From a virus, in IMG/VR virus record IMGVR_UViG_3300030388_001434, positions 1 through 31,166 of that record: a stretch of DNA of 31,166 nt. One strand, given 5' to 3'. Position 1 is the stretch's first letter, and the number at the start of each line of letters is the position of its first letter. Below the pieces are notes generated by a model, which saw only the letters and a list, made by a program, of their open reading frames with translations, searched no databases and was not told where the DNA came from. Shown here one piece after another: positions 10,831-28,728 of the stretch. The translations under genes were made by a program, and so were the position numbers.

Positions 10831-10846
10831 GTGCTATACTAAACGT
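10831..10846 (+). promoter_or_regulatory. Rightward cassette promoter (extended -10)
   Basis: TGC followed by TATACT (10835-10840) and AAAC, identical in its core to the divergent leftward promoter. There is no good -35 at 17 bases, so it probably relies on the extended -10. The leader runs into ATAAAAGGTG before the ATG at 10879. Confidence 0.6.
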
Positions 10847-10998: not shown

Positions 10999-11002
10999 AT
11001 GT

Positions 11003-11030
11003 TTGCAATAGTAAACAAACCTGCTATAAT
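11003..11030 (+). promoter_or_regulatory. Promoter between the first two rightward cassette genes
   Basis: TTGCAA (11003-11008), 16-base spacer, TGC and TATAAT (11025-11030) followed by AAAC. It is the best match among the five related promoters in this window. Confidence 0.75.
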
Positions 11031-11059
11031 AAACGCATAAACAAACAAAAGGGCTTAAA

Positions 11060-11185
11060 ATGAAAAACCAACAAATTACCAAGCAACTTTTTGCAAGCTG
11101 GGCTAAAAATGATTTAGTAAATCACTACTGGCTGTTAAAGCGCACTAACAAATTAACCGTAAAGCAAGCTCAAAGCCTGCCTATA
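11060..11185 (+). CDS. Short cassette ORF, 41 residues
   Basis: Encodes 41 residues (MKNQQITKQLFASWAKNDLV onward, ending KLKACL). It sits directly behind the strongest promoter of the cassette with AAAAGGG before the ATG. The composition is plausible for a small soluble helical peptide, but no family is recognised. The real-gene call rests on promoter, ribosome site and position. Confidence 0.45.
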
Positions 11186-11221
11186 ATTGCTAACTTACTT
11201 AACTTATAAAAGGTATTAAAT

Positions 11222-11455
11222 ATGTCAAAGCCAACTATAAACTTTAACCATCCTATTGCAGACGAATACTTTTACCTATCGCGCCACAATGTAGGGTTTG
11301 GCTTATCTACCATTGAGCAAGATGAAGTCCTAGATGATTACTACAGCGGTAGGCTAACCAGCAATCCAGCGCAAAATAAAATAATGCAAAAGTCTCGTTT
11401 TGAGGCTCTTAAACATGCCCTAATTCTTATGGGTACTAACGGCCAAGGCGGTTAA
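11222..11455 (+). CDS. Hypothetical cassette protein, 77 residues
   Basis: 77 residues (MSKPTINFNHPIADEYFYLS onward) with ATAAAAGGTATTAAAT before the ATG, the same leader as the leftward cassette genes. It is acidic at the N-terminus and helical toward 'QKSRFEALKHALILMG'. Last gene of the rightward cassette unit; a terminator follows within 10 bases. No family recognised. Confidence 0.6.
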   Translation: MSKPTINFNHPIADEYFYLSRHNVGFGLSTIEQDEVLDDYYSGRLTSNPAQNKIMQKSRFEALKHALILMGTNGQGG

Positions 11456-11461
11456 CCAAAA

Positions 11462-11487
11462 GAAAGCCCCTTTTAGGGGTTTTCCAT
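11462..11487. terminator. Bidirectional terminator after the rightward cassette
   Basis: AAAGCCCC, a short TTTTA loop and GGGGTTTT form a GC stem with T-rich tracts on both sides: TTTT on the plus strand, CTTTCTTTT on the minus strand. It ends the rightward cassette and could also stop leftward transcripts leaving the Mu F-like gene. Confidence 0.75.
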
Positions 11488-11489
11488 CT

Positions 11490-11945
11490 TTAAAAGTTTA
11501 GACGCGATTTGGCGACTCTAAAAAATTACAAATTTTCTGACCACCCAAAACCCCATCAAATTCGTAACTTCTTTTTTTGACACGCTTTTCGGCCTCTAAA
11601 AATTTTATAAATTTCTGACAGCTTGAAAACACCGTCAAATATTTAACTAATTATTTCAGAGCGTTTTCGCGCACCTTAAAAAATGAAAATCAAAACACCT
11701 CCTCTACAGGCCACGCGGTTACTGGGCTGTAGAAACTAATTCCTTTTGCTTCGTTTTTTGAAAGTTTGGGCGAAAATAAATTTATTTGATAGGGGGTGTG
11801 AAATTCTTGCAACTCTTTTTCGTTTAAAAAGTTTTTTCGTTTTTCGGGGCATTTTCAAACGGATTCAGGCATCGGCTAAAATTCTGACCAACTCTTTTGC
11901 TCTTAAAAAGTTTTTCCGTTTTTCGGGGGGTCAAAAAAATGAAAA
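11490..11945. repeat. Noncoding module A: degenerate repeat array with about 79-bp period
   Basis: A gene-free stretch between convergent genes. Unit landmarks: a CTCTAAAAA...TTTCTGAC element at 11516 and 11595 (79 apart) with a weak third copy near 11674; a hairpin with CTACAG (11704-11709) and CTGTAG (11727-11732); then a CAACTCTTTTTCGTTTAAAA element at 11810 and 11889 (79 apart). The last element forms a weak AT hairpin followed by T-runs on the plus strand. The same elements occur in the same order and spacing in module B (22005-22465). No credible coding sequence is seen. Possible roles: tandem terminators, an RNA 3' region, or a replication or packaging site. Confidence 0.7.
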
Positions 11946-12812
11946 TTACACATCTTCGTAATCGTCTATATCAAAATCATCCTGAACCGAATCTCTTGTG
12001 TCCGTGTAGATCACAACGCACCGACAGTTGCACACATTGACAGCCCCGCCTCTTGGGTCACCAGCGTAAGACATTGGCCTACCCCCGATAATGAAATCTT
12101 CATCCATTGATACCTGTTGGCCATTGGCTCTAGCGTGAGTTTCCCTAGTCCGACCATCTCCTGTAGAGACCCATTGCTTGACCATAGCCACTCCATAGTT
12201 ATCGCCTACCTGCTTATGGTAGCTCTGATGCGCAAAGCCAGCCGCGCTATGAGTCTCAGTTCTAGCGATTAAAGCCGCCCTATTGCGGTTGATTGAGCGG
12301 AAGTTCTTTCTTAGCTCACTCGCAATCTGTGCCAAAGTAGCGTCCCCTAGCCTTAATTTCTCTATAGATGCAATGATTAGCAAGCCCTGTGTGCGTGAAA
12401 TGCTACTTATGAAGCTCTCCCTGTTAATGAAGTACAGAGCGACGGCCTGTTCAAAGGCTGATGACCTTCCAAAGAAGAAAGCATCCCCCTCATCGGCTTT
12501 TGCAGATATTACTTGATAGGATTGGTAGTTGTAATCGTAGATAGCTTTGAATATTCGGCTTAACTGGGCTTTAATTACTGCGGTAACTTCTACCTCTACA
12601 TCTCTGACAAGCAAAGCGGCATCCACAACCTCCCCGCCCTCTACTTGCTTGGATGCTATGTTTACCGTCTTGTTGAAGCTAGTCTCTAACCGCCTTTGGA
12701 ATCCCCTACTTAGATTATCCCTTATCCTAGCTTGTTGGACAGCGTAGCGCCTAGCATTGATAGCGCCCTGCCTAAACCCTAGAATCTGATTGGCGGTTTG
12801 TTGCCTAGCCAC
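11946..12812 (-). CDS. Mu F-like (SPP1 gp7-type) minor head protein
   Basis: 288 residues. The N-terminal two thirds are helical. The C-terminal part holds the Phage_Mu_F signature: 'LIARTETHSAAGFAHQSYHK', 'KQWVSTGDGRTRETHARANG', then YAGDPRGGA and NVCNCRC. These minor capsid proteins bind the portal and help head assembly or DNA ejection. It starts 4 bases after the portal stop, so it is translationally coupled. Module A follows its stop, cutting it off from the protease gene that usually comes next. Confidence 0.9.
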   Translation of the reverse strand: MARQQTANQILGFRQGAINARRYAVQQARIRDNLSRGFQRRLETSFNKTVNIASKQVEGGEVVDAALLVRDVEVEVTAVIKAQLSRIFKAIYDYNYQSYQVISAKADEGDAFFFGRSSAFEQAVALYFINRESFISSISRTQGLLIIASIEKLRLGDATLAQIASELRKNFRSINRNRAALIARTETHSAAGFAHQSYHKQVGDNYGVAMVKQWVSTGDGRTRETHARANGQQVSMDEDFIIGGRPMSYAGDPRGGAVNVCNCRCVVIYTDTRDSVQDDFDIDDYEDV

Positions 12813-12816: not shown

Positions 12817-14691
12817 TTACGCCTTTCTTAGCGTGGAAAACCTATGCCCTACAATAACGTCGGTGGGGTCGCTTCCTTGGTAAATCCTAATGAGAGCCGC
12901 TGGATTATCTTCAGATGCATTAAGCGTGAAGTCTGTTTTAGGTACGGATAGCTTACCGCTTTTTACTATCTTTGTGATCTTACCTCTAGCCCTGCCACCT
13001 GAACTATTCCAGCTAACCATATCACCAACTGATAAATCTCCAGCCTCGGCTTTCGTATCTTCCTCAGCAATAATTTGCGCTCTCTTAGCCTTAGCCCAAG
13101 ATTGCCCTGCATCACCACCCCACAAAGCCCAAGCAATTCTCCCCGCTGATGGGTAACCCTTTTCAGATGGGCTAAACCCTGCGCCTTGCTTATCTACTTC
13201 ATGGCGGGAAAAGTAACTGTGCATCCTAGTAACCACATCAAGGGACAGCTTCTGGCGATCAACTAATTGATTAGCTCTAGTCACGCCTACCTGTGTACCG
13301 CCCCTTTTATGCTTTTTTCTCCAATCTAGCCCTCTCTGCGCTTCCTGAGACATAGCCTTGCTTGGTGTTGAATCTATATCAGATAGTGCCTTAGAATCGT
13401 CATACAGCTCATAATCCTTGCTATCTTCTTCCTCTACTGGAGCATCGGGAAGCCCTTCATTCAAAGGGAACAAACTAGCGTTAACCAACAAGCCATCCGC
13501 TCCATCAATAGCGTTTAGGCCAAGGCGCTCTCTTGCCTCGTTCCTAGTCATGATGCCTTCCTTTACTGCACCGATAACATTCTCATAAATTCTCTTTCTG
13601 CGTTCTGATAAGGCTGGTATCTCGTCGGTGTCAAACTTAAAGAAAACATCCTCGCTAAACTGAGGCATAAGCCATTCGTTAATATCTGACTGAACCTTTG
13701 ATAGCATAGGCAATATTGTTTCTTCGTAAAGAGCCAATCGCGCCTCAGCTACATTTGAGTAAGTTTGTGAGTCTGGCACGCCAACCAACTGACTAGGGAC
13801 GCCAAAACACATGGCAATATCGGTTGCGCTCATGTGTTTTAGGTTAATAAAGTCCATATCCTTGGGTGACAGCCCCATCTCTTTCCAATCAAAATCACCC
13901 TCTAACAGCATCGGCCTACCTGCATTATCAGTTCCAGAGAACCTATTATTTAGGTCAGTCATAAGTTGCTGTCGTTGCCCTGCGGTTAGGCTGGTTGCAA
14001 AACCGTCTGAATCTTTAGGTTTAAATATAACTGCACCTGATGGCCTAGCTCCATTATTGAGAAGGTTAATGTTGTGCTTGCTTGATAGGTTATGCTGGTC
14101 AACTTCAACAGCGGCCGCGTTAAGTGGTGATAGGCCGTAAAAGTCATCAAGTGGGTTCCATAGCTTAGTCTGCTTTAACTCACTAAATCCGCTATCTTGG
14201 TCTACATCATAAACAGCCTCAGTTCGTCCATTTACCTTGTAATCGTACCTTGCTGGCATAGCACCGCGACCACCGCTAATGGTAATTCTATCGGGACGGA
14301 GAAGGTGCAATTCTTTAGGGACGTTACTAATACCCGCCACCTTGAGCATATAACTATTGCCAGATAAAAGAAGATAGCCAAACAAGGCGTTCATAAACTC
14401 AGAATAACTTTGAAGTGGGTTGGGTCTATTGAGAAGGCTTTTAGCTGGATGGTTCTCTATTTCATCCCCATCAGCATTGCATATCTTGAATGGCACACCT
14501 GACGCACCTTTTGCTATTTCATTTACGCACCGATAAACGATAGCGTTCTTCATGTACCCTTCTGATGCTAAATCTTCGTATTGGTAGTTTGTTGGCTGGG
14601 TAGACCCTACTCCGAAATACCCGACCATAGATGAGTTCTTGGTGCTTACTGGTTCTACTGTCTTCGCTCTAAACCTATCAAATATAGCCAT
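12817..14691 (-). CDS. Portal protein with two C-terminal extension domains
   Basis: 624 residues from the ATG at 14691, which shares a base with the terminase stop (TAATG) and has GGAGA upstream; an earlier in-frame TTG at 14706 is less likely. Residues about 35-410 are an HK97-type portal ('NAIVYRCVNEIAKGASGVPF', 'PDSQTYSNVAEARLALYEE'). Residues about 448-540 form a second domain ('GLDWRKKHKRGGTQVGVTRA', 'MHSYFSRHEVDKQGAGF', 'IAWALWGGDAGQSWA') known from other phage head proteins. Residues about 552-624 match the HVA1/DUF2945 Tudor-like domain ('VGDMVSWNSSGGRARGKI'). Typical portals of this type end near 400-500 residues, so this is a fusion. Confidence 0.92.
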   Translation of the reverse strand: MAIFDRFRAKTVEPVSTKNSSMVGYFGVGSTQPTNYQYEDLASEGYMKNAIVYRCVNEIAKGASGVPFKICNADGDEIENHPAKSLLNRPNPLQSYSEFMNALFGYLLLSGNSYMLKVAGISNVPKELHLLRPDRITISGGRGAMPARYDYKVNGRTEAVYDVDQDSGFSELKQTKLWNPLDDFYGLSPLNAAAVEVDQHNLSSKHNINLLNNGARPSGAVIFKPKDSDGFATSLTAGQRQQLMTDLNNRFSGTDNAGRPMLLEGDFDWKEMGLSPKDMDFINLKHMSATDIAMCFGVPSQLVGVPDSQTYSNVAEARLALYEETILPMLSKVQSDINEWLMPQFSEDVFFKFDTDEIPALSERRKRIYENVIGAVKEGIMTRNEARERLGLNAIDGADGLLVNASLFPLNEGLPDAPVEEEDSKDYELYDDSKALSDIDSTPSKAMSQEAQRGLDWRKKHKRGGTQVGVTRANQLVDRQKLSLDVVTRMHSYFSRHEVDKQGAGFSPSEKGYPSAGRIAWALWGGDAGQSWAKAKRAQIIAEEDTKAEAGDLSVGDMVSWNSSGGRARGKITKIVKSGKLSVPKTDFTLNASEDNPAALIRIYQGSDPTDVIVGHRFSTLRKA

Positions 14692-15992
14692 TATGAAATT
14701 CTCCAAGCAATATCACCTGATGATTTGCTTAATTCAGTTAATCCCCATACCAAGGCATCAAGCCTATCGGGGGAGGGTTTTGGCCTGTCACCTGTGTAAG
14801 TACACATCTGCTCTTCTAGCTCTGGATAAATTCCAATGTGGTGGACTTTGCCTTGCTCGTATAACGCTGATATTGGCTCCGCTCTAAGCATCTTTCCTCT
14901 ACTAGCATGAACCGATCTATACTTGCAGTTTACATCAACGCTTCTAATTAGACTCTCAACTAAATCACCGCCATTGTTAACTTCCGCAACGATCAGGTTA
15001 GCTTGCCATGTGTGATAAAGCTCTACAGAGAGCCTTGCCCAATCGTTTGGAGTATAGACACCAGAACGATCATCTAACAGATAATACTTCTTCTCAGCGT
15101 CTTTTCCTACTACAACAATCCCTGACTCGTCAGAATCAGCGTTAGCAGTAACCGCTGGGTCAACCGCTACAATTATTTTAGTGAACTCTGGCTTAGTGTC
15201 TCTCGGCAACCTGCAAGCGTCTATCATGCTGTGATTCCATAGCGCCCCTTCTAAGTTATCAAGCACTTCCGCATAGAGTTCCTGCCTACCCAGCGCAGTC
15301 CCTTCATACTTTTCTTTTAGCATGGCCAGCGTAGATGCCGCTAAGTTATCGGAGTTCTCAAAGGTGTTACCTGTAGTAACTACCACATCCTTTCTATCTA
15401 GCAACTTACGGATGAGAGGCGTGGGTTTGGGTGTGGTGGTAATGATGCACTTGGGGTTCTCACCTAGACGTAAGCCAAACATTAGCTGGTCAAAGGCTTC
15501 TGGGTATCTCCATGCCGCAAGCTCATCACACCAAGCTCTGTGAAACTGTGGACCTCGTAAACGCTCTGGCTCAGTAGCAGAAAACCCATAAATTATAGAG
15601 CCATTAAACAAGCGTATTTCAGATGCAGATGAATTGTAACCCTGACCCCTACCCTTGAGCATACACTCCTCTGGGCAGGTTTTTAGTATCCCTGACACCC
15701 CGCCAAAGGCAACCCTTCTAATATCTCCAAACGTAGGAGCTAGGACGGCTACCTGAACATTTGGATTTCTAAGAGCGTAAAGCAACGCATCGGATGCCCC
15801 TGTTCTAGTCTTACCCCACCCTCTGCCAGCAAGGATGAGCCATATATTCCAATCACCAACTGGAGTTAGTTGAGTCGGCCTAGCTGTAGATAGCCAATCA
15901 GTGTAGAGACTTGCTACCGCCTTGTGACTTTGCGTTCGCAAGCTCGTCAAGTTGGTCCATAACTCGGTGGAAGGCTTCTGGATTGCTGACAT
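14691..15992 (-). CDS. terL: Terminase large subunit
   Basis: 433 residues; the ATP-driven DNA packaging motor with nuclease. Walker A 'LAGRGWGKTRTG' (about 54-65), Walker B with the catalytic pair Asp-Glu at 156-157 in 'HRAWCDELAAW', coupling motif 'CIITTTPKP' (182-190), and an RNase H-fold nuclease with Asp278 in 'IIVAVDPAV' plus a late acidic residue in 'SPDRLDALVWGL'. It resembles the Terminase_6/GTA-type group. The ATG at 15992 overlaps the small terminase gene by 95 bases; AAAGG upstream supports it, but a TTG start nearer the small-terminase stop cannot be excluded. Confidence 0.95.
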   Translation of the reverse strand: MSAIQKPSTELWTNLTSLRTQSHKAVASLYTDWLSTARPTQLTPVGDWNIWLILAGRGWGKTRTGASDALLYALRNPNVQVAVLAPTFGDIRRVAFGGVSGILKTCPEECMLKGRGQGYNSSASEIRLFNGSIIYGFSATEPERLRGPQFHRAWCDELAAWRYPEAFDQLMFGLRLGENPKCIITTTPKPTPLIRKLLDRKDVVVTTGNTFENSDNLAASTLAMLKEKYEGTALGRQELYAEVLDNLEGALWNHSMIDACRLPRDTKPEFTKIIVAVDPAVTANADSDESGIVVVGKDAEKKYYLLDDRSGVYTPNDWARLSVELYHTWQANLIVAEVNNGGDLVESLIRSVDVNCKYRSVHASRGKMLRAEPISALYEQGKVHHIGIYPELEEQMCTYTGDRPKPSPDRLDALVWGLTELSKSSGDIAWRIS

Positions 15993-16462: not shown

Positions 16463-17044
16463 TTAACCGTTACCGTTATTTTCTATCTTTTCCGAATCTT
16501 TAAATTCTTTCTTAATTCGTATCTGGTGTTTTGTTACCCATGCTTTGTTATATTCGGTATCTGCAAAGAGCTTAGAGAATCCAGTGATATGCTTTAACCT
16601 AAGCAACTCATCAGGTTCCATCCCTAAGTGGTTACATACCTCTTCATCCTTCCAACCGTTATCAAGCATAGAGAATACCATACTGGACATGCCACTTACT
16701 GAGTGCTGTCCCCTTGCCCTATTGTGCCTAACTGTAGCGGCCATTCTTTCATTAATATCTTTCTTGATTACAACTATTGGAACCCTACCTTGAGTGGTGT
16801 CAAATATATCCTTGTTGTTCTTACAGGTAAAGTATCTGTGGAAGCCGTCAACAATCACATACTTCTTTTTTTCTTCATCGTAGATTGTAACTATAGGCTG
16901 TGTATAACCATCGTGCTTGATTGAGGTATGTAGCAATTTCATCTCTTGCCCTGCAACTGAGTTAGGGTTGTAGTCGTTTGGCTCTACGTCATCAACAGAA
17001 ACCCATAAAACATCGCTAATTGGTTGGTTTGGTATATCACTCAT
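16463..17044 (-). CDS. IbrB-like ParB/Srx-domain protein
   Basis: 193 residues. A ParB N-terminal (ParB/sulfiredoxin) fold is visible: 'VDDVEPNDYNPNSVAG', 'HDGYTQPIVTIYDEEKKK', 'YVIVDGFHRYF' (the nucleotide-binding box), then 'TVRHNRARGQHS' and a helical part with 'DGWKDEEVCNHLGMEPDE'-like HTH character. IbrB, first described with IbrA as an activator of eib genes in E. coli, has this domain, and the two are encoded together. Here it overlaps the IbrA-like gene by 8 bases. ParB-fold phage proteins can be NTPases or nucleases; the substrate is unknown. Confidence 0.8.
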   Translation of the reverse strand: MSDIPNQPISDVLWVSVDDVEPNDYNPNSVAGQEMKLLHTSIKHDGYTQPIVTIYDEEKKKYVIVDGFHRYFTCKNNKDIFDTTQGRVPIVVIKKDINERMAATVRHNRARGQHSVSGMSSMVFSMLDNGWKDEEVCNHLGMEPDELLRLKHITGFSKLFADTEYNKAWVTKHQIRIKKEFKDSEKIENNGNG

Positions 17045-18215
17045 GGGTAGTGCCTCTCTGATGTGGCTTTATGAACCTAAGGTCTCTCTCTGGACGATTC
17101 CAGTTTATTTCTAACCCCCTTTTGAATTTAAGAAAATTAATTGTTTCTGGTCTACCAAGAAAGTTGGATATTTTTGCAAACTCAAAATCATTGGCAAGTA
17201 TCCCTAGTATCTGGGTTTTGTACATTTCATGGATGTTATTCATATCACTAAACTTTCCATCCATCCATAAATGCTTTTTCTCTAGCTTTTTCCTTATGCC
17301 ATCATCTTGTATTAGATTGTCGCAAAGGTGGTCTCTGTACTCCCTCCAATCTTTAAACATAAACGGCAACTCATTAGCCCTAAACATTTCATTTTTTTTC
17401 ATATGCTTAGTTTGATTAATGCCTTTAAGTCTTTTAGTTAACGCATTCCAAGTGTCACCCTCTAGCTCATGCAAATAAAATAACTGATCTACAGCCGTTT
17501 CATGGTGAAGGTTGCTCACCCGCATTTTTATTGGGGCTATCCCATACCTATAAAACTCGTCATATATTTTGCAGTAATCCCAACTGTGGTCGTGAATTGC
17601 TTTCCAAATATCGGTATAGCTCCAATCATACAAAGGATAGAAAACATAATGGCCTTGCTTCTCATCGTAGACCTTGCCATAGGTTATATCTTTATAGGTA
17701 GCCCCATTAGTCAAACCTGCTCGTCTGTTTGGGCTTTCCTCTGCTCTGACACCCCCTAGTAAAGCAACTGACTTACCCTTGTAATGCTTTGCCAGATACT
17801 TGGGAAACATATTATAAAAGCGATCAGTACCGTAAGTATTTTCTTTGATGCTTATAGGGTCTTTCTCCCTCATGTGTTCTTCATTTAAATCCCAGCAGTT
17901 CAACCAAGGGTAATCCATAGTGGTCGCATTAAATAATTTGATAGGCACCTGTAGCCAGTGAGGGGTCACTTCGTCGCGGTACATGACCCTTTTAACGTAA
18001 TCAACAACAGCTTGCCACTCGGCCTCTTGGTCAAGCATCATCACTGTAAGGGGTAATTTGCCCTCTTTCTCAGCAACTAACAGCGCCATTTCAAGCGTTA
18101 CGGTGCTATCTTTGCCCCCACTAAAGCTAACTACCACTTCATCAAACTCTCGGAACAAGAAAGTAATTCTTTCAATGGCTTGGTCAAATACGTTATCTTT
18201 TAGAAAAATTTTCAT
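17037..18215 (-). CDS. IbrA-like PP-loop enzyme (PAPS reductase/ATP pyrophosphatase family)
   Basis: 392 residues. The PP-loop 'VVSFSGGKDSTVTLEM' (about 29-44) binds ATP as in PAPS reductases and thiolation enzymes; 'ALLGGVRAEESPNRRAG' and 'YPLYDWSYTDIWKAIHDHSW' are typical of the IbrA (DUF3440-type) subgroup. The C-terminal 120 residues are helical and basic, unlike classical CysH, and no CysH-type C-terminal catalytic Cys motif is seen. It overlaps the second methyltransferase-like gene by 4 bases and the ParB-like gene by 8. Members could adenylylate and sulfur-modify a nucleic acid or act as regulators; the phage role is open. Confidence 0.85.
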   Translation of the reverse strand: MKIFLKDNVFDQAIERITFLFREFDEVVVSFSGGKDSTVTLEMALLVAEKEGKLPLTVMMLDQEAEWQAVVDYVKRVMYRDEVTPHWLQVPIKLFNATTMDYPWLNCWDLNEEHMREKDPISIKENTYGTDRFYNMFPKYLAKHYKGKSVALLGGVRAEESPNRRAGLTNGATYKDITYGKVYDEKQGHYVFYPLYDWSYTDIWKAIHDHSWDYCKIYDEFYRYGIAPIKMRVSNLHHETAVDQLFYLHELEGDTWNALTKRLKGINQTKHMKKNEMFRANELPFMFKDWREYRDHLCDNLIQDDGIRKKLEKKHLWMDGKFSDMNNIHEMYKTQILGILANDFEFAKISNFLGRPETINFLKFKRGLEINWNRPERDLRFIKPHQRGTTHE

Positions 18216-18802
18216 AGTTTATTCATTTGTCCTGAAATAACCGTAATACACTTTCCATCATAGTCTGATGCCACAAACCTTTGGCCTCCACCTATCATAA
18301 AATTTTTAACTGGATAGCCATATCCGCAAGTAAAATCACCTAGGCATTTATACCTAGAGCCAAGTCTTTGGCAGATAAGTTCTGTTGATGAGAGTAGAGT
18401 CGGGTTTTCATCATTCCAGACACCCATTGAAACCACATCACCATTTAAAGTAGTCTCTACAATCACATCTGGACTTGGCAACTTTGCTAGGTTTGTTGCA
18501 CTCATAATAAGATATATTGGCTTAGTCCACTCAAGTAGAATTTTAGATACGGCTTCAATTAAATCGTTAAATTTTATATCCTCTATACCAGCCCGCTCAT
18601 TAAAAACCTTTAATCCACTAGGAGCGTAAGGAGGCTCAGAATACAAAATGTCACATTCATTAAAATCAACTGCTAAACCGTCAGATACAAAATCATGCTT
18701 CAACATAATTCCATTGTGATGCTCAACCCTAGCGGTCTCTTTTATCCCTTTGTAGGTAACAGATCTGTTCTTCAAAGCCGTATGATAAAACACTACTTGC
18801 AA
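18212..18802 (-). CDS. Methyltransferase-like protein with EPPY motif
   Basis: 196 residues. Near residue 56 'CDILYSEPPYAPSG' replaces the usual D/N-PP-Y/W of amino-methyltransferases with EPPY, and toward the C-terminus 'LGDFTCGYGYPVKNFMIGGG' resembles the AdoMet-binding FxGxG motif. The motif order (PPY first, glycine loop late) equals that of the neighbouring DPPW protein. Glu in place of Asp may change or abolish methyl transfer. It overlaps its neighbours by 10 and 4 bases. Likely DNA-directed; activity uncertain. Confidence 0.65.
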   Translation of the reverse strand: MQVVFYHTALKNRSVTYKGIKETARVEHHNGIMLKHDFVSDGLAVDFNECDILYSEPPYAPSGLKVFNERAGIEDIKFNDLIEAVSKILLEWTKPIYLIMSATNLAKLPSPDVIVETTLNGDVVSMGVWNDENPTLLSSTELICQRLGSRYKCLGDFTCGYGYPVKNFMIGGGQRFVASDYDGKCITVISGQMNKL

Positions 18803-19428
18803 TCCTTACTCAATCTAGCGATTGTTTTTTCTAATCGCTTTTCGTTTAGCTCATTACCGTAAAATATCAATCCCTTATCAACTGTTGCTTGAGCTGTATA
18901 TCCCATACCACACATAGGGTCTAATACCGATTCCGCATCTTTAGGAAGCAAGTAATTAAAAATAAAACTGACCAGCTTCTGCCCCCTTAGTTCATAGCAT
19001 TTTTCAGTAAAATAAGCCTCGTCAGGCATTTTGAAGGTGCCGCTTTTGGATATAATATGAACATCTAAAGGCAACAGTTTGGCCGCAGACCCATACCGTG
19101 ACGTGTAAACACCGTGATGTGTAAATCCTGACTCTTTGCAGACAGAAATAACATCTGACCTCCAGCCTACTCCGTACTCAATTACAGCCAGATCTTTTAT
19201 GTTTTTATATGCCATATTAAAATAAAAAGGCAAAAACTCCGCATAATCAATGTCAGATTTCTCTCTGCCTGTGTGTCTTTTGTTGATGGTTTGCCAGTAC
19301 CGAAGATTTCCCTGCCCCCAAGGAGGGTCGCTATATAAAAAATCAGCTTGAAATCCACTCATTAGGATATCAATTCCGTTCATTACGTCTGATCGCTGAA
19401 CCTTATGCTTTCCTATTTTAGTAATCAT
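18793..19428 (-). CDS. DNA amino-methyltransferase-like protein (DPPW)
   Basis: 211 residues. Catalytic motif IV 'FLYSDPPWGQGNLRYW' (about 30-45) and AdoMet motif I 'VLDPMCGMGYTAQATV' (about 168-183), followed by 'IFYGNELNEKRLEKT', as in N6-adenine/N4-cytosine methyltransferases with motif IV before motif I. No separate target-recognition domain is obvious, so specificity may come from the neighbouring ParB-like protein or be relaxed. It starts 3 bases after the preceding gene. Probable role: protecting phage DNA from restriction or adding the first step of a larger modification. Confidence 0.78.
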   Translation of the reverse strand: MITKIGKHKVQRSDVMNGIDILMSGFQADFLYSDPPWGQGNLRYWQTINKRHTGREKSDIDYAEFLPFYFNMAYKNIKDLAVIEYGVGWRSDVISVCKESGFTHHGVYTSRYGSAAKLLPLDVHIISKSGTFKMPDEAYFTEKCYELRGQKLVSFIFNYLLPKDAESVLDPMCGMGYTAQATVDKGLIFYGNELNEKRLEKTIARLSKDCK

Positions 19429-19431
19429 ATT

Positions 19432-19713
19432 TTACTCCGTCGGCTTTCTGTTTATAAGGATTGTCTCAGATACAGGCGCACCCATAGTCCAATATTTATA
19501 CCCATCAAAATTAAAACAAATATAAGGCCATCCACGAAACTTCTCTTCTATTCCATATTTTCTAATTAAAATAACGCTCTCTTCAAAGGCTTCTGGGAAC
19601 TTCCAGCTCTTTTTTAAGGTGTAATAGTGAGGATTTTTTGGCATCGTTTTGGCAAAAATCCACCTCTGGAGATGAAGCCTATTTGATAAATCTTCTTGAG
19701 ATTTAGATTCCAT
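19432..19713 (-). CDS. Conserved small phage protein of the ParB/methyltransferase cluster
   Basis: 93 residues from the ATG at 19713, which overlaps the ParB-like gene by 11 bases; a longer frame exists upstream but would lie wholly inside that gene. The C-terminal half, 'FRGWPYICFNFDGYKYWTMG' and then APVSETILINR, is a recognisable motif of a small protein often encoded with phage ParB and methyltransferase genes. N-terminal part: 'HYYTLKKSWKFPEAFEESVI'. Function unknown; an accessory to the modification cluster is inferred from context. Confidence 0.65.
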   Translation of the reverse strand: MESKSQEDLSNRLHLQRWIFAKTMPKNPHYYTLKKSWKFPEAFEESVILIRKYGIEEKFRGWPYICFNFDGYKYWTMGAPVSETILINRKPTE

Positions 19714-20281
19714 CAAACGTAAAGCTCTCTGCACAATACGGACACATAACCTCAGTCCCTTGAGCGGAGCGATCACCTGTCAACTTATCCATATTTGCGC
19801 TCATTGAATCTTGAGTTTTTGAAATATCCCCTGCGTTAATATCAGAATAAGAGGTTGTCGGATTCATATTTGGCTCAAAATCTAAGGAAATGTTTTCATC
19901 AAAACCAATTAAATCAAGACTAAAGCCTGAACTATTGATCTCTTTAAGCTCCGCAAAATACAAAGAGCTATCCCACTCACTACCCTCTGACAACTTATTG
20001 TCCGCAATGACGTACGCCTTTTTCTGAGTATCTGACCAGCCTTTTGCCGTTATACATGGGACTGTTTCCATTCCCAAAGATTTAGCCGCAAACAAACGAC
20101 CATGCCCCGCAAGCACAACTTGCTTCTCATCAATCAATATGGGGACTGTGAAACCCCATTCTCGGATGCTATTTGCAATCTGAATTATTTGCTCATTTGA
20201 GTGAATGTTAGGATTTCTGTCATAAGGAATTAAGCTGTCAACAGCAACTTCTGTCATATCTTTGGCGTGAATTGTAGTCAT
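19703..20281 (-). CDS. ParB-domain protein with C-terminal CPYC motif
   Basis: 192 residues. ParB N-terminal fold: 'DSLIPYDRNPNIHSNEQI', 'GFTVPILIDEKQVVLAGHGR' with the GHGR nucleotide box (59-62), then LFAAKSLG and a linker 'AYVIADNKLSEGSEWD' typical of phage ParB-methyltransferase systems. The C-terminus ends with CPYCAESF, half of a zinc knuckle. It heads the leftward operon and probably acts with the methyltransferases encoded next, for example by guiding them to DNA. A weak TACAAT -10 (20311-20316, minus) lies upstream. Confidence 0.82.
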   Translation of the reverse strand: MTTIHAKDMTEVAVDSLIPYDRNPNIHSNEQIIQIANSIREWGFTVPILIDEKQVVLAGHGRLFAAKSLGMETVPCITAKGWSDTQKKAYVIADNKLSEGSEWDSSLYFAELKEINSSGFSLDLIGFDENISLDFEPNMNPTTSYSDINAGDISKTQDSMSANMDKLTGDRSAQGTEVMCPYCAESFTFDGI

Positions 20282-20360
20282 CTGACACTCTTTTTGTAAG
20301 TCAAAAACACATTGTACATCATGGATTGCGGAGAGAAAAGCCCGAAACGAATAAAAAAAC

Positions 20361-20373
20361 GCACAATATGTGC
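20361..20373. promoter_or_regulatory. Candidate operator palindrome between divergent operons
   Basis: GCACA-ATA-TGTGC, a perfect 5-bp inverted repeat around 3 bases, in the 185-base divergent gap between the ParB-like and amidoligase genes, 19 bases before the -35 of the rightward promoter. Its size fits a small dimeric repressor. Confidence 0.4.
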
Positions 20374-20392
20374 AATTAATTCTCAGTAAAGG

Positions 20393-20420
20393 TTGTTTAT
20401 AATACTAAACTCTGTATAAT
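20393..20420 (+). promoter_or_regulatory. Promoter of the amidoligase operon
   Basis: TTGTTT (20393-20398), 16-base spacer, TATAAT (20415-20420) preceded by TG and followed by AAAT. The leader contains ATAAAAGGTG as at the other related promoters. Confidence 0.7.
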
Positions 20421-20466
20421 AAATTATGTAGAGAGAAAGAAACCAACCCATAAAAGGTGCTTGAAA

Positions 20467-21495
20467 ATGTTAAATTTACCAGTAATTAGCAACAAGAGTT
20501 TCGGAATTGAAGTTGAGTTTGTTGGCGCTTGCCCTAGGCACGTTGCCCAAGTTATAAACAGCCTTGAGGGTGTTGAATGTTCTTATGCTGGCTACACTCA
20601 CCTTACAACTAGCTACTGGAAAGTTGTCTACGATGGCTCTTTAAGCGGTGTTCGCGGCCATGCTGGTGAGCTGGTTAGCCCAATTCTTAACGGTGTTGAG
20701 GGTGTTAGAGAGTTAGAGCGTGTAATTGAGGCGCTCAATTCTGTAGAAGGCGTTACTGTAAACCGTAGCTGTGGTTTGCACGTTCATTTAGATTGCCGTG
20801 AAATGAACATTAACGAAATCAAAACTACCTATGAGCGGTACTCAAACCATGAAGAGCAAATTGATCTTTGTATGCCCCGCTCTCGCAGAGGAAGCCCTCG
20901 CTGGTGTGCCAGCACTGCAAGCGTAAAGAACGCTGTTAAACGCGCAACGTGTAAGCCTAACGCGGCTAGAGCCGCAGAGCGTTACTACAAAGTAAACCTC
21001 ACTAACATAGCCAGCAGAGGCTCTATTGAGTTTCGCCAGCATAGCGGAACAACTGAGTTCAAGAAAATTGTGAACTGGCTTTCTTTCCTAATGCAGTTTG
21101 TTGAGAGTAGCATCCAGATGGCTGGCTCAACAGCGGTCAAGCCTAGTGCATGGTATGCACAGCTTAAAACTTTAGTAGGAAAGTGGGGCGGTGATTTTAG
21201 TTATAGCAAGTCTACTAGGAGCTGGAATGTTGTTAAAAACGGAGTCTTAGTAACTAGGCTGTCTAATTGCCAAATCTCAGAGCTATATGTTAGCGGTTCT
21301 GCAATGAAAGCAAAAGGTTTGCGCCCATTGCACCAGTTAGAGAACCTGCTAGAAGTATACGGCCTCCCTTACTCTGAGCTTATGGCCGCTGTAAGCAACC
21401 CTGTTACAGTCTCAGAAAATGATCAAGGCGTTTACCACGGCATAACTACCCAAATCCAAGATTACCTGAGAGAGCGCCAAGAAGAGCTTTCTTAA
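20467..21495 (+). CDS. Amidoligase-family (COOH-NH2 ligase, glutamine synthetase-like) enzyme
   Basis: 342 residues from the ATG at 20467 (AAGGTG 7 bases upstream; an in-frame TTG at 20461 is too close to that site). Amidoligase_2 motifs are present in order: 'FGIEVEFVG' (12-20), 'DGSLSGVRGHAGELVSPIL' (56-74), 'SCGLHVHLDC' (101-110), 'ERYYKVNL' (about 176) and 'GSIEFRQHSGT' (about 189). These correspond to the metal/ATP-binding Glu, His and Arg residues of the glutamine synthetase fold. The family is predicted to join carboxylates and amines into amide or peptide links. Its partner gene downstream is a gamma-glutamylcyclotransferase, so a gamma-glutamyl-type bond is a plausible product. Confidence 0.88.
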   Translation: MLNLPVISNKSFGIEVEFVGACPRHVAQVINSLEGVECSYAGYTHLTTSYWKVVYDGSLSGVRGHAGELVSPILNGVEGVRELERVIEALNSVEGVTVNRSCGLHVHLDCREMNINEIKTTYERYSNHEEQIDLCMPRSRRGSPRWCASTASVKNAVKRATCKPNAARAAERYYKVNLTNIASRGSIEFRQHSGTTEFKKIVNWLSFLMQFVESSIQMAGSTAVKPSAWYAQLKTLVGKWGGDFSYSKSTRSWNVVKNGVLVTRLSNCQISELYVSGSAMKAKGLRPLHQLENLLEVYGLPYSELMAAVSNPVTVSENDQGVYHGITTQIQDYLRERQEELS

Positions 21496-21530
21496 ACCCA
21501 AATTAAACAACCCAAAAAGGAAATATCAAG

Positions 21531-21962
21531 ATGAATACAATAACTGAATACTTATATGGGGCTTATGGCTCCAACCTTAACAAAGACCAGATGGAGTTCA
21601 GATGCAAGAACGCTACGCCTGTGAAAAGCTATACGCTGAAGGGACACGCGCTAAAATTTAGAGGGGTTGCCGATGTAGAGGTATCTACAGATGGAAGCTC
21701 TGTTCCACTAGGATTGTGGAAGATAACAAAAGATTGTGAAAAGAGCCTTGATAGATACGAAGGATACCCTAACCTGTACGTTAAAAAGTTTATTGAGACA
21801 GAGCATGGCTTAGTTATGATTTACATTATGCGAAACCAAGATAGCCTATACCCACCCTCCAACTACTACCTTGACGGAATTGCTACAGGATATTATGATT
21901 TCTCGCTAGACAACAGAAAGCTCAAAGATGCTGTTACAGATAGTTATTTAAACCAGCAATAA
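21531..21962 (+). CDS. Gamma-glutamylcyclotransferase-like protein (AIG2/GGCT fold)
   Basis: 143 residues. The fold signature 'YGAYGSNLNKDQM' (9-21) binds the gamma-glutamyl group, and Glu77 in 'LDRYEGYPNLYVKKF' is the expected catalytic acid. These enzymes release 5-oxoproline from gamma-glutamyl amines or peptides. AAGGA lies upstream, and the gene starts 35 bases after the amidoligase stop, so the two form one transcription unit ended by a strong terminator. In amidoligase gene clusters GGCT proteins are thought to reverse or trim the amide bond. The cellular target (peptidoglycan, polyamine or protein tag) cannot be read here. Confidence 0.85.
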   Translation: MNTITEYLYGAYGSNLNKDQMEFRCKNATPVKSYTLKGHALKFRGVADVEVSTDGSSVPLGLWKITKDCEKSLDRYEGYPNLYVKKFIETEHGLVMIYIMRNQDSLYPPSNYYLDGIATGYYDFSLDNRKLKDAVTDSYLNQQ

Positions 21963-21969
21963 AACCAAA

Positions 21970-22001
21970 CCCCACTAGCTGACTACTAAGTGGGGTTTTT
22001 T
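21970..22001 (+). terminator. Rho-independent terminator of the amidoligase operon
   Basis: CCCCACT (21970-21976) pairs with AGTGGGG (21989-21995), followed by TTTTTT and further T-rich sequence. It lies 7 bases after the GGCT stop; the opposite strand also ends in a T-rich tract. Confidence 0.85.
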
Positions 22002-22004
22002 CTC

Positions 22005-22465
22005 TTCTTTTTTAAACGCGCAATTAGACCCTAAAATATTTTATAAATTTCTGAGACCCTTAAAACAGCATCAAAAAAATTACTTAATTATTTAGACCTA
22101 AGTTTGACCTCCAAAAAAATTGTAAATTTCTGAAGCCTTAAAAACCAGTCAAAAAAAGTAAGTTGTTTTTATTGGACTAATTCAAGCCCCTTCAAAAATG
22201 AAAATAAAATGTCACCCCCTGAAAGCCCCGTACTTAAAGGGCTGTAGAGTAGCGTGTTTTTACTTTAGGTTTTCAAAAGTTTCAGCCATTTTTTTATTTA
22301 TTCAGCCATCAACTAAAAAAAACGCAACTCTTTTTCGCTTAAAAAGTTTTTTGCTTTTTTCGGCAACATTTTAAATTATTCGCTAGTCCTATAAAAATTT
22401 GATCAACTCTTTTTCGTTTAAAAAGTTTTTTGGTTTTTGGAGCGCATTTTAAAATGGTTTTTTGT
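22005..22465. repeat. Noncoding module B: paralogue of module A
   Basis: A gene-free stretch between convergent genes with the same elements, order and spacing as module A. The CTAAAA...TTTCTGA element is at 22030 and 22109 (79 apart), followed by 'TTCAAAAATGAAAATAAAAT' near 22191. Next is a hairpin AGCCC/GGGCT (22224-22243) ending GGGCTGTAG. The CAACTCTTTTTCG element is at 22325 and 22404 (79 apart). A 28-base block at 22404-22431 is identical to 11810-11837. From first to last landmark the module spans 374 bases, against 373 in module A. No coding sequence is credible here. Confidence 0.7.
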
Positions 22466-22822
22466 CTACTTTAAATTTCTTAGACTTACCTGTCGTGATC
22501 TTTCCGTTTCCCATTTAGCCTCTGATATTCTTAATATCCTTTTGGCTGTCTCAGCCCTTACCGATAAAGTTTGAGCCTCAAGATACCTTCCCTCCCAATC
22601 GTTATGGGTTCTCACCAACCCCTCAGCCATAACCCCTGATGCCTTGTTTCTCATATGCGCCATCTTGATAGCGGCCTCCCACGCTTTAAAGCTAGATTCA
22701 ACCTCAATATATCTAATTTGAGCCGCCTCATAGTTAGCAATTGCGTCCTCCCAAACTTCAATGCATTTATCAAGAGGGTCAGACCTTAGGTTTTGTGTAT
22801 AAGAATTGTTTTCACCATTCAC
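22466..22822 (-). CDS. Small helical phage protein, unknown
   Basis: 118 residues, almost entirely helical and charged: 'CIEVWEDAIANYEAAQIRYI', then KMAHMRNKASG, then 'LRISEAKWETERSRQVSLR'. The pattern resembles a small helical protein often found beside phage replication genes. Its start overlaps the XRE regulator by 11 bases. Last gene of the leftward replication operon, facing module B. Function unknown. Confidence 0.6.
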   Translation of the reverse strand: MNGENNSYTQNLRSDPLDKCIEVWEDAIANYEAAQIRYIEVESSFKAWEAAIKMAHMRNKASGVMAEGLVRTHNDWEGRYLEAQTLSVRAETAKRILRISEAKWETERSRQVSLRNLK

Positions 22823-23060
22823 GTCGTTTTCTCCTTAGCAGTTCATCCATACTTACATCAAAGTAATCAGCTAACGTCTGCACAGTCGTAACTCTTGGGT
22901 TGCATCCAGACAAGGTTCTGCTGATAAGTGGTTGGCATAGGTCTGTAGCCCTAGAAATATCGCTCTGGCTTACTCCATGCTCTCGCATCAATCTGACAAC
23001 ATTTGTTGAAAGGGCGTTTAACCTTGATAATTCTTTTTCCGTCTTTTTCATTTTTTTCAT
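22812..23060 (-). CDS. XRE-family DNA-binding regulator
   Basis: 82 residues with a classic HTH_3 domain: 'LMREHGVSQSDISRATDLCQ' is helix-turn-helix and 'PLISRTLSGCNPRVTTVQTL' completes the bundle, ending 'YFDVSMDELL'. It overlaps the nuclease gene upstream by one base and the helical protein downstream by 11 bases. Position inside the replication operon rather than at its promoter suggests an autoregulatory or anti-repressor role, but no operator can be assigned. Confidence 0.85.
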   Translation of the reverse strand: MKKMKKTEKELSRLNALSTNVVRLMREHGVSQSDISRATDLCQPLISRTLSGCNPRVTTVQTLADYFDVSMDELLRRKRREW

Positions 23061-23395
23061 TATTTTCTCTCCGTTTTTATTAAGTATTTAATATCATGTA
23101 TCACGTTTTCGCTTATCTGGCTGGTTGTATATCTTAAGACTCGCCACCCACCCATCATTGCTGTGTTGTACTTAATCAGATCAGCAGAATACCCTGACCC
23201 TCTTGTATGCCGTCCATTAGCATAAACACCCCCCTCAACCTCAACCGCAATTTTTAGCATTGAAGGAAAGTCCCCTATCACAAAGTCAAACCGCCACTTT
23301 CTTATATCGTGAAACCTAAACTCTCTGTGATAAGGTATTTTGTAGTGCCTAAGCAATATGCAAAGCGTTTCCTCGCCTTTTGAACTAGCGGCCAT
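23060..23395 (-). CDS. PD-(D/E)XK/Vsr-like small endonuclease
   Basis: 111 residues from the ATG at 23395 (GGAGGG 7 bases upstream), overlapping the helicase stop. The core 'KWRFDFVIGDFPSMLKIAVE' then VEGGVYANGRHTRG gives the D...E-x-E arrangement of the Vsr/DUF559 nuclease fold, and 'KYNTAMMGGWRVLRYT' completes it. Such stand-alone nucleases are common in phage replication modules, where roles in junction resolution or mismatch nicking are proposed. Confidence 0.75.
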   Translation of the reverse strand: MAASSKGEETLCILLRHYKIPYHREFRFHDIRKWRFDFVIGDFPSMLKIAVEVEGGVYANGRHTRGSGYSADLIKYNTAMMGGWRVLRYTTSQISENVIHDIKYLIKTERK

Positions 23396-25097
23396 TACCA
23401 CGCCCTCCGTATCCGTAATCTTCGTTAGGAGGCTCTACAAACGTCCTACTGGCAAAGTCAAAGTTAAACGTAGCCTCGCCTATCTGTCCGTACATTCCTT
23501 GCTCTCTAATCTTCCTCGTTATCACTTGAATACTGTTGTTATCAAAATCTCTATGAACCACTACCACCGCATCAGCTTGGTTGTGCCAGTGAGCCGCGCC
23601 ACTAATATCGTATGCGCTGGGCGCTTGGTATCCGTTGTTCTCTTTTTGTAGCTTGGTAGGATGGGCAACAACCCACGTTGTAATATCGTGCATCTTACAA
23701 AACCGCTTGCACTTGCTAATAAAATCTCGGATATGCTCGTCTTCCCTATAGCTACCCTTTCTACTTGCATCAACCTCGTTATAAGGGTCTATAACAATGC
23801 CATTGCATCCGTACTTTTGTATGCTCACCTTGGCAAGCTCAAGAATCTTATCCACGCTGGGTATATGCTCTCTGGTTTCAATAAAGAAAAAATGCTTTTG
23901 TATCCAGCGCATACCTTCGGTTGCCTCCTCCTCTGTCATTCGCCCATTGAAGCCTTGGTCAAAAGGTTTGCCAGTAAGCATTTGCAACAACCTCCTGATA
24001 TGCATTTTTGTGGAATGCTCTGGAGAAAACATTACAAATTTCCAATCGTGGTTTTTTGCAAGCTGTATCAAGCACTGGTCTAAAAATGTACTCTTGCCGT
24101 GGTTCGGGATGCCTGTCCAAACATGGAATGTTCCCTTCATAACCTTGTAAATTTTATCAAGGTTTGCGTACCCAACATTTACAGGCTTATCGTAATTGCC
24201 TCTGTATAAGTCCATCACCTCATTGTAATAAGTGCCTACCGTATAAAGCCCATCAACTGGACAAGGCCGCGCATTAGTTATCAGGTTGTGCAAGTATTCC
24301 TTGCCATGCTTTATAAGAACATCGTTAGCGTCTTTGCAATCTTCTGGAGGAACCACATACCAGCACTTTACTTTTCCATATCTATGCATCAGCTCCTTCT
24401 TTAAATTGTCACCAGCACCATCAGCATCACAAAATAAAACAATCTTATTTGCTTTTAGTGGATGGGTTTGTAAGCACTGAAATCTCTTGTCGTTTTCCTT
24501 GTAGGAGGTTTTAGCTGGCGCACCATCTGGCAAAGTAGTCACGCATGTAAACCCGCATTCGTGAACGCTCAAGGCATCCATTTCACCCTCTACAAAAATC
24601 GCCACATTTGATTCAGCCACCGCTTTGTAATTATATAAAGATTTCACTGGGTCTTTGCTTTGCTTGAATCTCTTATCTTTATGCCTGTATTTTATATTGT
24701 CACACTGCCCTGACTCCCCATTGTAAGGAAAGCCTATCCATTCATCATTTTCAGAAAATACCTTAAATGCTTCATAAGTCTCTTTTGAAATACCCCTCTT
24801 CTCAAAATAATCATCTAAGAAAGTTGAGGTGTTTGCGATGTTAGGCGTAAAAGATTTTCTCTGAGGAACTGTTCTTTTTTGTGTGCCAGTTAATGCGCTT
24901 TGCTCCATTACTCCTCCCTTGTTTTCGCAGTGGTGACAAAAGAACACAACCTTATCGTGAGATATTTCCACCGACATTGGCCTATCATGTGAGTCGTGAG
25001 GTGGTTGGCACTCTGGACATTTTATTTTGTGGTTTCCTTCATCTAAGTGGCCTATTTTAAGGCCATGCTTTTCAAACGCTTCATCCAGCAAGGTCAT
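23385..25097 (-). CDS. Bifunctional DNA primase-helicase (T7 gp4/Twinkle-like)
   Basis: 570 residues from the ATG at 25097, which has AAGGAGA upstream; longer frames run back into the initiator-like gene. Zinc-binding primase domain: Cys27, Cys30, Cys54, Cys57 ('KCPECQPPH', 'FFCHHCENKGG'). Toprim: Glu170 ('VAIFVEGEMDALSV') and Asp224/Asp226 ('KIVLFCDADGAGDN'). RecA-like helicase: Walker A 'WTGIPNHGKSTFLDQ' (about 327-341), Walker B 'GIVIDPYNEVDASR', H4 region 'WVVAHPTKLQ' and 'ISGAAHWHNQADAVVVVHRD'. It would synthesise primers and unwind DNA at the phage fork. It overlaps the initiator-like gene by 17 bases. Confidence 0.93.
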   Translation of the reverse strand: MTLLDEAFEKHGLKIGHLDEGNHKIKCPECQPPHDSHDRPMSVEISHDKVVFFCHHCENKGGVMEQSALTGTQKRTVPQRKSFTPNIANTSTFLDDYFEKRGISKETYEAFKVFSENDEWIGFPYNGESGQCDNIKYRHKDKRFKQSKDPVKSLYNYKAVAESNVAIFVEGEMDALSVHECGFTCVTTLPDGAPAKTSYKENDKRFQCLQTHPLKANKIVLFCDADGAGDNLKKELMHRYGKVKCWYVVPPEDCKDANDVLIKHGKEYLHNLITNARPCPVDGLYTVGTYYNEVMDLYRGNYDKPVNVGYANLDKIYKVMKGTFHVWTGIPNHGKSTFLDQCLIQLAKNHDWKFVMFSPEHSTKMHIRRLLQMLTGKPFDQGFNGRMTEEEATEGMRWIQKHFFFIETREHIPSVDKILELAKVSIQKYGCNGIVIDPYNEVDASRKGSYREDEHIRDFISKCKRFCKMHDITTWVVAHPTKLQKENNGYQAPSAYDISGAAHWHNQADAVVVVHRDFDNNSIQVITRKIREQGMYGQIGEATFNFDFASRTFVEPPNEDYGYGGRGNGR

Positions 25098-25491
25098 TTT
25101 TTGTTCTCCTTCTTGTTTGTGGGGGGTTTCTAATATGTATAGGTAATGTATTGGAGGACGCTGGTGTCCTAGGGGGGTGGACACTGGTGGCCTGAGTAGG
25201 GTGGCCACTGGTGTCCGCAGGGGGGTGGACTCTGGTGTCCATGCCTAACTTATATAGGTTGGTTGTTCCCAATCTTTTTTGAACTGTAATATACTCAAGC
25301 TCCTCAAGAGAAGCGATGCACCTACGCACTGATCTATCAGATACTCCGCATATTTCTGCAAGGTGTTTTTCAGATGGGTAGCACTTATGAGTTCCCTTTC
25401 TCGCATAGTTTGCAAGCATAAAAAGAACTAGCTTTGTGGTTGGGGTGGGGCAAGGTAATAACCTAACCCAATTTATTGCGTCTGTACTCAT
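25081..25491 (-). CDS. Replication initiator-like winged-helix protein (lambda O-like)
   Basis: 136 residues. N-terminal winged helix: 'PTTKLVLFMLANYARKG', then 'PSEKHLAEICGVSDRSVRRC' and 'SLEELEYITVQKRLG', as in phage O/DnaD-type initiators. The C-terminal part (about 84-120) is a low-complexity Pro/Thr/His region with an 8-residue repeat (DTRVHPPA, DTSGHPTQ, ATSVHPPR) encoded by a 24-bp DNA repeat that looks like an origin array. The stop overlaps the primase-helicase start, as expected for an initiator feeding a helicase. A palindrome covers its ribosome-site region. Confidence 0.75.
   Translation of the reverse strand: MSTDAINWVRLLPCPTPTTKLVLFMLANYARKGTHKCYPSEKHLAEICGVSDRSVRRCIASLEELEYITVQKRLGTTNLYKLGMDTRVHPPADTSGHPTQATSVHPPRTPASSNTLPIHIRNPPQTRRRTKNDLAG
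25161..25248. repeat. Iteron-like 24-bp tandem array inside the initiator gene (candidate origin)
   Basis: CTGGTGTCC-type units start at 25161, 25184, 25208 and 25232 (spacing 23, 24, 24). Each full unit carries an inverted repeat. In unit 1 it is GTGTCC with GGACAC; in unit 2 both arms have changed together to GTGGCC and GGCCAC. Iterons inside an initiator gene are the arrangement of lambda ori in gene O. Moderately AT-rich DNA (TATATAGG region, about 25250-25300) lies beside it. Confidence 0.6.
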
Positions 25492-26607: not shown

Positions 26608-26811
26608 ATGAAATTTTATTTTACAGAACAAGAAGTAGAAGTTATTAGACAATCTATACAGCTAATGGATTTAGAAATCAAAGGTGACGATTCAGGGTTT
26701 TATTCTACAAGCGAAATAAACGCGAGATCTACCGTTGAGAAAAAAATTATATTGGCCATAAAAAATGAAGTGTTAACTCAAAAAATAAAGGATATAAATA
26801 ATGAACGATAA
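26608..26811 (+). CDS. Hypothetical small protein of the recombination operon
   Basis: 67 residues starting MKFYFTEQEVEVIRQSIQLM, mostly charged helices. It starts 3 bases after the nuclease stop and overlaps the ERF start by 11 bases, so it is translated with both. No family recognised; an accessory to the nuclease-annealase pair is inferred only from position. Confidence 0.6.
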   Translation: MKFYFTEQEVEVIRQSIQLMDLEIKGDDSGFYSTSEINARSTVEKKIILAIKNEVLTQKIKDINNER

Positions 26812-27487
26812 ATTGATAACCGCTCTCATAGAGTCGCAAAAAGCAATAACCCACGCCAGCAAAGATGGCAAGAACCCTTATTTTAAAAGTGACTACGCTA
26901 CCCTTGAGGAAGTGATAACTACGGTTAAACCGCCACTCAATCACAATGGCGTTATGTTCCAGCAGATATGCCACCCTTCTGATATTGGCGTTTGTGTTGA
27001 GACTGTATTCTATGGACATGGTGGTGAGCTACGCACTGGACAGTTTACCGTTCCAGCAGATAAGCGCGACCCCCAAGGGTTTGGTTCTGCCCTGACGTAT
27101 GCAAAAAGATACAGCCTATCTATGGCTTGCGGAATTGGACATCAGAAAGATGATGATGCTGAAACCGCTATGATTACTCGCAAGAAAACAGACAAGGTTT
27201 ATGCGGCACCAAAAGCTATTAAAAAGGAAAGTGTCAGCGTACCGACAACGGATACAAACGCCTTGTACAAAATTATGTTGCAAGGAACTTTGATAGAGGC
27301 GTGTACTGGAGAGAGTGAATTTCTTGGACAATGTAGAAAGCATTTAGCCAATCCAGAATCGCAGGCTTGTCAAAATATATATAACTCTGAAACTCAGGGA
27401 TATATTAAAACGGCACTGGTTAACAGTCCCGATGGAAGCGCCATTAAAACCAGCTTTGGCCAGCTAATTAAACTATATGAGAAATGA
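26801..27487 (+). CDS. erf: ERF-family single-strand annealing recombinase
   Basis: 228 residues. The ERF core is clear: 'GKNPYFKSDYATLEEVITTV' (about 23-42), 'FTVPADKRDPQGFGSALTYA' and 'KRYSLSMACGIGHQKDDDAE'. The C-terminal half (about 130-228) is variable, as in other ERF proteins. It anneals complementary single strands during phage recombination or genome circularisation and likely works with the upstream nuclease and the downstream SSB-like protein. Confidence 0.93.
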   Translation: MNDKLITALIESQKAITHASKDGKNPYFKSDYATLEEVITTVKPPLNHNGVMFQQICHPSDIGVCVETVFYGHGGELRTGQFTVPADKRDPQGFGSALTYAKRYSLSMACGIGHQKDDDAETAMITRKKTDKVYAAPKAIKKESVSVPTTDTNALYKIMLQGTLIEACTGESEFLGQCRKHLANPESQACQNIYNSETQGYIKTALVNSPDGSAIKTSFGQLIKLYEK

Positions 27488-28706: not shown

Positions 28707-28728
28707 CCTTTGTTTGCTATAATAAACT
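28707..28728 (+). promoter_or_regulatory. Promoter of the distal small-gene operon
   Basis: TGC followed by TATAAT (28718-28723) and AAAC, the same core as the cassette promoters. The leader carries ATAAAAGGTG before the ATG at 28755. There is no clear -35. Confidence 0.65.

Follow-up and report, generated by a model that had tools for sequence, protein, structure and literature searches.

The window analysed here is the whole stretch of 31,166 bases (42% G+C) of the incomplete IMG/VR virus record IMGVR_UViG_3300030388_001434, whose source, an uncultivated phage, we take to be probably marine, going by the kind of hosts and samples of its relatives. Late genes on its minus strand encode a major head protein (7652-8866), a protease (8863-9849), a head morphogenesis protein (11946-12812; PHROG 2468, E 3e-36) and a portal (12817-14706), and a further minus-strand gene (22466-22822) encodes a 118-aa protein with no Pfam hits. 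A Cro/C1-type HTH protein (22812-23060), a primase/helicase (23385-25208) and, on the plus strand, an ERF-family single-strand annealing recombinase (26801-27487; Pfam ERF, E 4.3e-19) are also encoded. There are two plus-strand accessory cassettes, the first (10879-11455) with ORFs of 39, 49 and 77 aa and the second (20461-21962) with an amidoligase-like and a GGACT (gamma-glutamyl cyclotransferase-like) gene. The promoter-like repeat TGCTATAMTAAAC precedes small genes, with an AAAGG-type ribosome site in between, and is kept in relatives; it occurs in or near the first cassette at 10832 and 11022, again at 28715 (plus strand) and near 10762 (minus strand). Three 22-base repeats with a 24-base period (25171-25240) overlap the start region of the primase/helicase gene.

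Between the 3' end of each cassette and the stop of the minus-strand gene facing it lies a noncoding module. The core of module A (11514-11928; nhmmer match 11515-11931) adjoins the stop codon of the head morphogenesis gene, and that of module B (22029-22443), delimited by alignment and profile match, adjoins that of the 118-aa gene; both are assigned to the minus strand, which is the strand of the predicted shared RNA structure. A protein-coding gene was rejected, as the longest-open frame is broken by stops in the A and B copies and none of the frames stays open from end to end. Each module starts with two R1 repeats (11516-11588 and 11593-11667 in A; 22030-22101 and 22108-22181 in B), located by profile hits and, for the second repeat of A, also by spacing; the profile also matches on the reverse strand of R1 itself, which marks R1 as an imperfect palindrome (..ACAAATTTTCTGA..AAAAC..TCAAA). 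A central hairpin, seen in the sequence and in the fold, follows at 11703-11733 in A (TCTACAG/CTGTAGA) and 22218-22248 in B (AGCCC/GGGCT). Pattern and profile hits then place two R2 repeats (11810-11846 and 11889-11925 in A; 22325-22361 and 22404-22440 in B), each a palindrome of the form AACTCTTTT-N5-TTAAAAAGTT with a T-rich flank, whose arms are invariant and whose centre is variable in all copies, and which carry an identical asymmetric C/A mismatch in every copy. At the left edge of A a stem at 11467-11479, flanked on each side by a T tail, is read as a minus-strand terminator, and at the left edge of B a terminator-like hairpin (21970-22001) was read from the sequence, the pattern scan for terminators making no call there. 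The 8-bp sequence GGTTTTTT is directly repeated around module B on the plus strand (21994-22001 and 22456-22463).

A preliminary description of this DNA had proposed that B is a colinear paralogue of A, and the alignments bear this out. MAFFT aligned the two modules end to end over 415 columns without a gap, with 60.7% identity between the window's own pair (39% divergence), and the pairwise global alignment proposed earlier, of 11456-11945 with 21963-22465, scored 227 against -45 +/- 18.5 (maximum 15) for dinucleotide shuffles, the local alignment of the two regions scoring 142 against 26 +/- 3.3. The anchor spacing R1a-79-R1b-116-hairpin-86-R2a-79-R2b is common to A, B and almost every relative, with a single exception in module B of L088, where R1a and R1b are 78 apart. 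The held distances described earlier are thus confirmed, although the 373 and 374 bases then given were measured between other landmarks and the first-to-last distance used here is 361 in A and in B. The 28-base and 16-base blocks that had been singled out are exactly identical, but they pair non-corresponding repeats, the 28-mer matching the first R2 of A (11810) to the second of B (22404) and the 16-mer the second R1 of A (11603) to the first of B (22039).

Searches of 2.9 million viral contigs with the exact R2 pattern and with an independent R1 pattern returned the same ten IMG/VR contigs, all related to this virus; outside the virus itself the module was found only in these. Every copy lies at the A or the B junction, each of them an accessory-gene ('moron') slot that faces a late operon on the minus strand. 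No match to module A was found by blastn in 50,697 phage records, and nhmmer searches with full, R1 and R2 profiles of every locus retrieved, among them about 75 from more distant relatives, gave no confident additional match. The exact R2 pattern was absent from 84,980 prokaryote genomes, and a host or prophage origin was rejected on this ground. Further copies at other junctions, a possibility raised earlier as a check, did not appear, either in the window or beyond it, in 7.5 kb to the right (G004) and 2.7 kb to the left (G002). Literature searches of open-licence papers returned no description of such an element. The earlier view of it as real and apparently undescribed holds, with copies at held spacing in related genomes. 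Several distant relatives have intergenic duplications of another kind, which were considered and rejected as modules, as they are 5' promoter regions of opposite-strand genes. These segments of 60-110 bases (GGAATATT..., with GTAAACC), unrelated to the modules in sequence, are a shared promoter or leader at the 5' end of such genes, in seemingly the same two slots (L017, 8071-8173 and 14230-14327; L078, 8070-8176 and 14126-14230; likewise L015, L052, L048 and L083). Other short duplicated segments occur in L094 (255-297 and 2604-2647) and L096 (1001-1047 and 2585-2631), in the part of these related genomes that lies past the right end of the window.

The cassettes that meet the modules differ between relatives. 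To the left of module A an ORF of 38-39 aa is present in every carrier that reaches that far, and the ORFs following it vary (49 and 77, 92, 65 and 63, or 77 and 61 aa); the change in content stops at the left edge of the module, where different accessory genes abut. Such junctions at the left edge of a module are seen in L086/L089, L084/L090, L093 and, for module B, L088. The arrangement described earlier, a terminator to the left and a minus-strand gene to the right, holds within the window, but in L084 and L093 the module comes directly after the cassette stop with no clear terminator, and at module B of L088 the 5.5 kb to the left is replaced and there is no plus-strand cassette at all. 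Because module B of L088 persists in this setting, module and plus-strand cassette are separable. The block missing in L088, and likewise in L005, corresponds to 16472-22035 of the window, encodes ParB_N-domain proteins, a PAPS reductase-like protein and the amidoligase, and is replaced by about 370 bp. In L084 a short G-rich repeat, GGGGGGGTAGGTTAA, at about 12690-12800 separates module A from the head morphogenesis stop, and the contig of L006 ends within this repeat, before any module A could be read.

Module B is dispensable, since one relative (L006) does without it while retaining the minus-strand gene, the terminator-like hairpin, the plus-strand cassette and a single copy of GGTTTTTT. 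This state may reflect either a deletion between the GGTTTTTT repeats or an unoccupied site. The latter would fit a mobile element, MITE-like or a cassette-associated recombination site, inserting at convergent junctions, as would the presence of two copies per genome and the 8-bp end sequence kept in L006. Deletion between the repeats explains L006 equally well, however, the same two junctions alone are ever occupied, the two ends match each other in inverted orientation over 7-10 bases at best and there is no attC core-site pair, so that we regard insertion of this kind as most improbable. A transposable element or MITE was rejected on the same end matches and the two junctions, the 8-bp repeat around B being ambiguous, and an integron cassette (attC) was rejected because GTTRRRY is absent from both modules. 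The earlier suggestion that the element may drive recombination or cassette mobility accordingly divides in two: signs of self-mobility were not found, whereas mosaic sites and comparison with the neighbouring gene point to exchange of module A.

The head morphogenesis gene to the right of module A divides the phages into two groups. Its fourfold-site identity is 94-97% among the phages of group I and 90-94% among those of group II, and falls to 45-50% from one group to the other. Module A, by comparison, diverges by 1-6% inside a group and by 5-10% across groups, ranges which overlap, and because this low divergence lies beside a gene saturated at its fourfold sites, module A appears to have been exchanged between lineages. 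The patterns of individual sites switch inside the module: the ten informative sites of R1a follow the phage groups, while eleven sites between +7 and +201 group L089 and L085 with L084 instead, and at seven of these L093 belongs with them too. As read from these mosaic patterns, exchange of the module A core between lineages is supported as the simplest explanation. Module A is thus a conserved sequence at a junction of changing content that conflicts phylogenetically with its flanks, a result that covers module A, the copies of module B being too few. The encoded ERF recombinase would plausibly be the agent of exchange; Erf of phage D3 efficiently recombines substrates that are 78% identical (PMC3945230). 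A reading of module A as ultraconserved by purifying selection (91% identity beside genes of 77%) was dropped because divergence within groups is similar to that across them.

These same data bear on whether the modules have any role beyond shared homology, the alternative being a relic that was duplicated with the slots and kept alike by frequent recombination. The overlap in module A divergence within and between groups is what exchange predicts, module B can be lost, and within group I module A diverges at nearly the rate of fourfold sites in the neighbouring gene, which makes short-term constraint look weak. On the other hand, columns common to A and B are less variable among the A orthologues than the remainder (19/247 vs 32/157, p=0.0003), and this depleted variation, together with spacing held at 39% divergence between A and B, points to the repeats, and the distances between them, being under selection. 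We therefore consider a relic with no role of its own unlikely.

Folding of the alignments favours the minus strand. In sets of four and seven copies that combined A and B, the minus-strand consensus fold was better than column shuffles (z -3.5 to -4.8), with z = -2.7 for the window's A and B alone and 0 or 1 of 60 shuffles as good across these sets, whereas the plus-strand fold was no better than shuffles (z -0.4 to -0.8) and coding controls gave z between -1.1 and 0.3. Alignments of A copies only gave no fold excess (z about 0). The consensus energy was -43.0 on the minus strand vs -29.6 on the plus strand, and the minus-strand structure was well above slid controls, with 92.2% of cells paired in a structure derived from the same alignment; pairing on the plus strand was slightly lower, at about 89% by hand count. 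Pairs changed on both sides numbered 16 on the minus strand against 10.4 +/- 2.1 in shuffles (1/500), mostly reflecting one A-vs-B contrast. No two-sided change was found in the local hairpins of R1 or R2, the R2 stems yielding no covariation because they are invariant, and the R2 hairpins are A-U rich with stability not above shuffled sequence. At the central hairpin the 3' arm GGGCTGTAG is common to A (11724) and B (22239) and the 5' partner differs, as first described, but the proposal that pairing rather than sequence is kept there is weak: several arm changes among A-type copies break the pairing, about equally often on either strand, and no consistent compensation was found among the A copies. 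Comparative folding thus favours a conserved minus-strand RNA structure with modest covariation. A known Rfam RNA was rejected, the Rfam 15 cmscan of the window (E up to 5) giving three weak matches, all far below gathering, of which one touches a module (RF01772, 28.3 bits vs 55).

Could the structure belong instead to the plus-strand cassette, as its terminator or a structured RNA at its end? The position of the module directly after the cassette stop in L084 and L093 and the form of R2 on the plus strand, a stem and then a T run, would suit this, but the absence of a plus-strand fold excess, the persistence of module B in L088 once the cassette is gone and the hairpin and T run with which the window's own cassettes already end make it very unlikely.

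A different possibility is that the modules act as DNA, the palindromic R1 and R2 forming an array of binding sites at which a DNA-binding protein of the phage or its host would build a spaced nucleoprotein complex, serving as an operator, replication origin or transcription roadblock. The invariant arms and variable centre of R2, the dyad symmetry of R1 and spacing held to the base despite 39% divergence are all consistent with such an array, and the gene for the Cro/C1-type HTH protein adjoins module B. This protein is also encoded in L006 (46% identity), which has no module B, and the link between the two is therefore not specific. In addition, the shared structure is strand-biased and the constant C/A mismatch of R2 fits a minus-strand G-U pair better than a symmetric operator. 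Predicted curvature is no greater than that of shuffles, which led us to reject curved DNA and leaves repeats and A+T richness alone as origin-like traits. Such an array is nonetheless a real possibility, if on balance improbable. Given the fold results, with their limits, and the ordinary curvature, we lean towards a minus-strand 3'-end RNA, with the DNA operator array close behind.

Our preferred reading, to which we give a probability of roughly 40%, sees in the module a structured element at the 3' end of the minus-strand operons, with a second role as a homology joint. It would be a noncoding cis element in two copies, one at the inner edge of each accessory-gene slot and immediately behind the stop codon of a late operon on the minus strand. 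The transcript of that operon would run on into it as a 3' tail, whose successive weak stem-loops would lead up to the terminator on the far side, and the folded tail may set or protect the 3' end where the convergent accessory transcript meets it. Module A would, through its shared sequence, also be the homology joint where recombination in the phages swapped the core and let different accessory cassettes attach. That both modules abut a minus-gene stop and lie behind it in sense orientation supports the 3'-tail reading, while the unclear terminators of L084 and L093 and the existence of L006 without module B weigh against it. It is more doubtful that the modules constitute a new class of phage structured RNA of about 400 nt, forming the 3' tail of two late operons as two paralogues (61% identity, with every inter-element distance kept) that double as exchange joints.

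Candidate structured noncoding RNAs have been sought by comparative genomics (PMC2864571), and the module resembles such candidates in being noncoding, repeated in related genomes and provided with a consensus fold that beats shuffles on one strand; it differs in its weak, A-U-rich stems, in the few independent lineages that carry it and in having no near-threshold Rfam match. A phage moron is an ORF flanked by a promoter and a terminator and inserted between genes (PMC3029335), and both slots likewise carry plus-strand accessory ORFs, promoter-like sequences and, in the window, terminators, but the module is an extra noncoding unit past the terminator and can occur without a plus-strand cassette, as in L088. 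Rad52-like phage recombinases, Erf included, carry out relaxed homologous recombination (PMC3945230); an ERF-family protein is encoded here too and module A is mosaic between diverged lineages, the difference being that recombination is in our case read from sequence alone. Short conserved boundary sequences have been proposed as joints of phage mosaicism, although such linkers cannot be found at most boundaries (PMC3029335). Like them, the module is conserved and noncoding and lies at a junction of changing content in lineages that exchange DNA; unlike them, it is about 415 bp long, repeated, palindromic and constrained in spacing, with two diverged paralogues per genome. The idea of conserved linkers at mosaic joints is an old one, yet such linkers are rarely seen. 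Here a long, architecturally constrained noncoding element occupies both accessory slots of one phage clade and appears to have passed between lineages that are saturated at synonymous sites in the flanking gene, providing a testable case of whether selection maintains such joints for some function that they have themselves or recombination merely borrows them.
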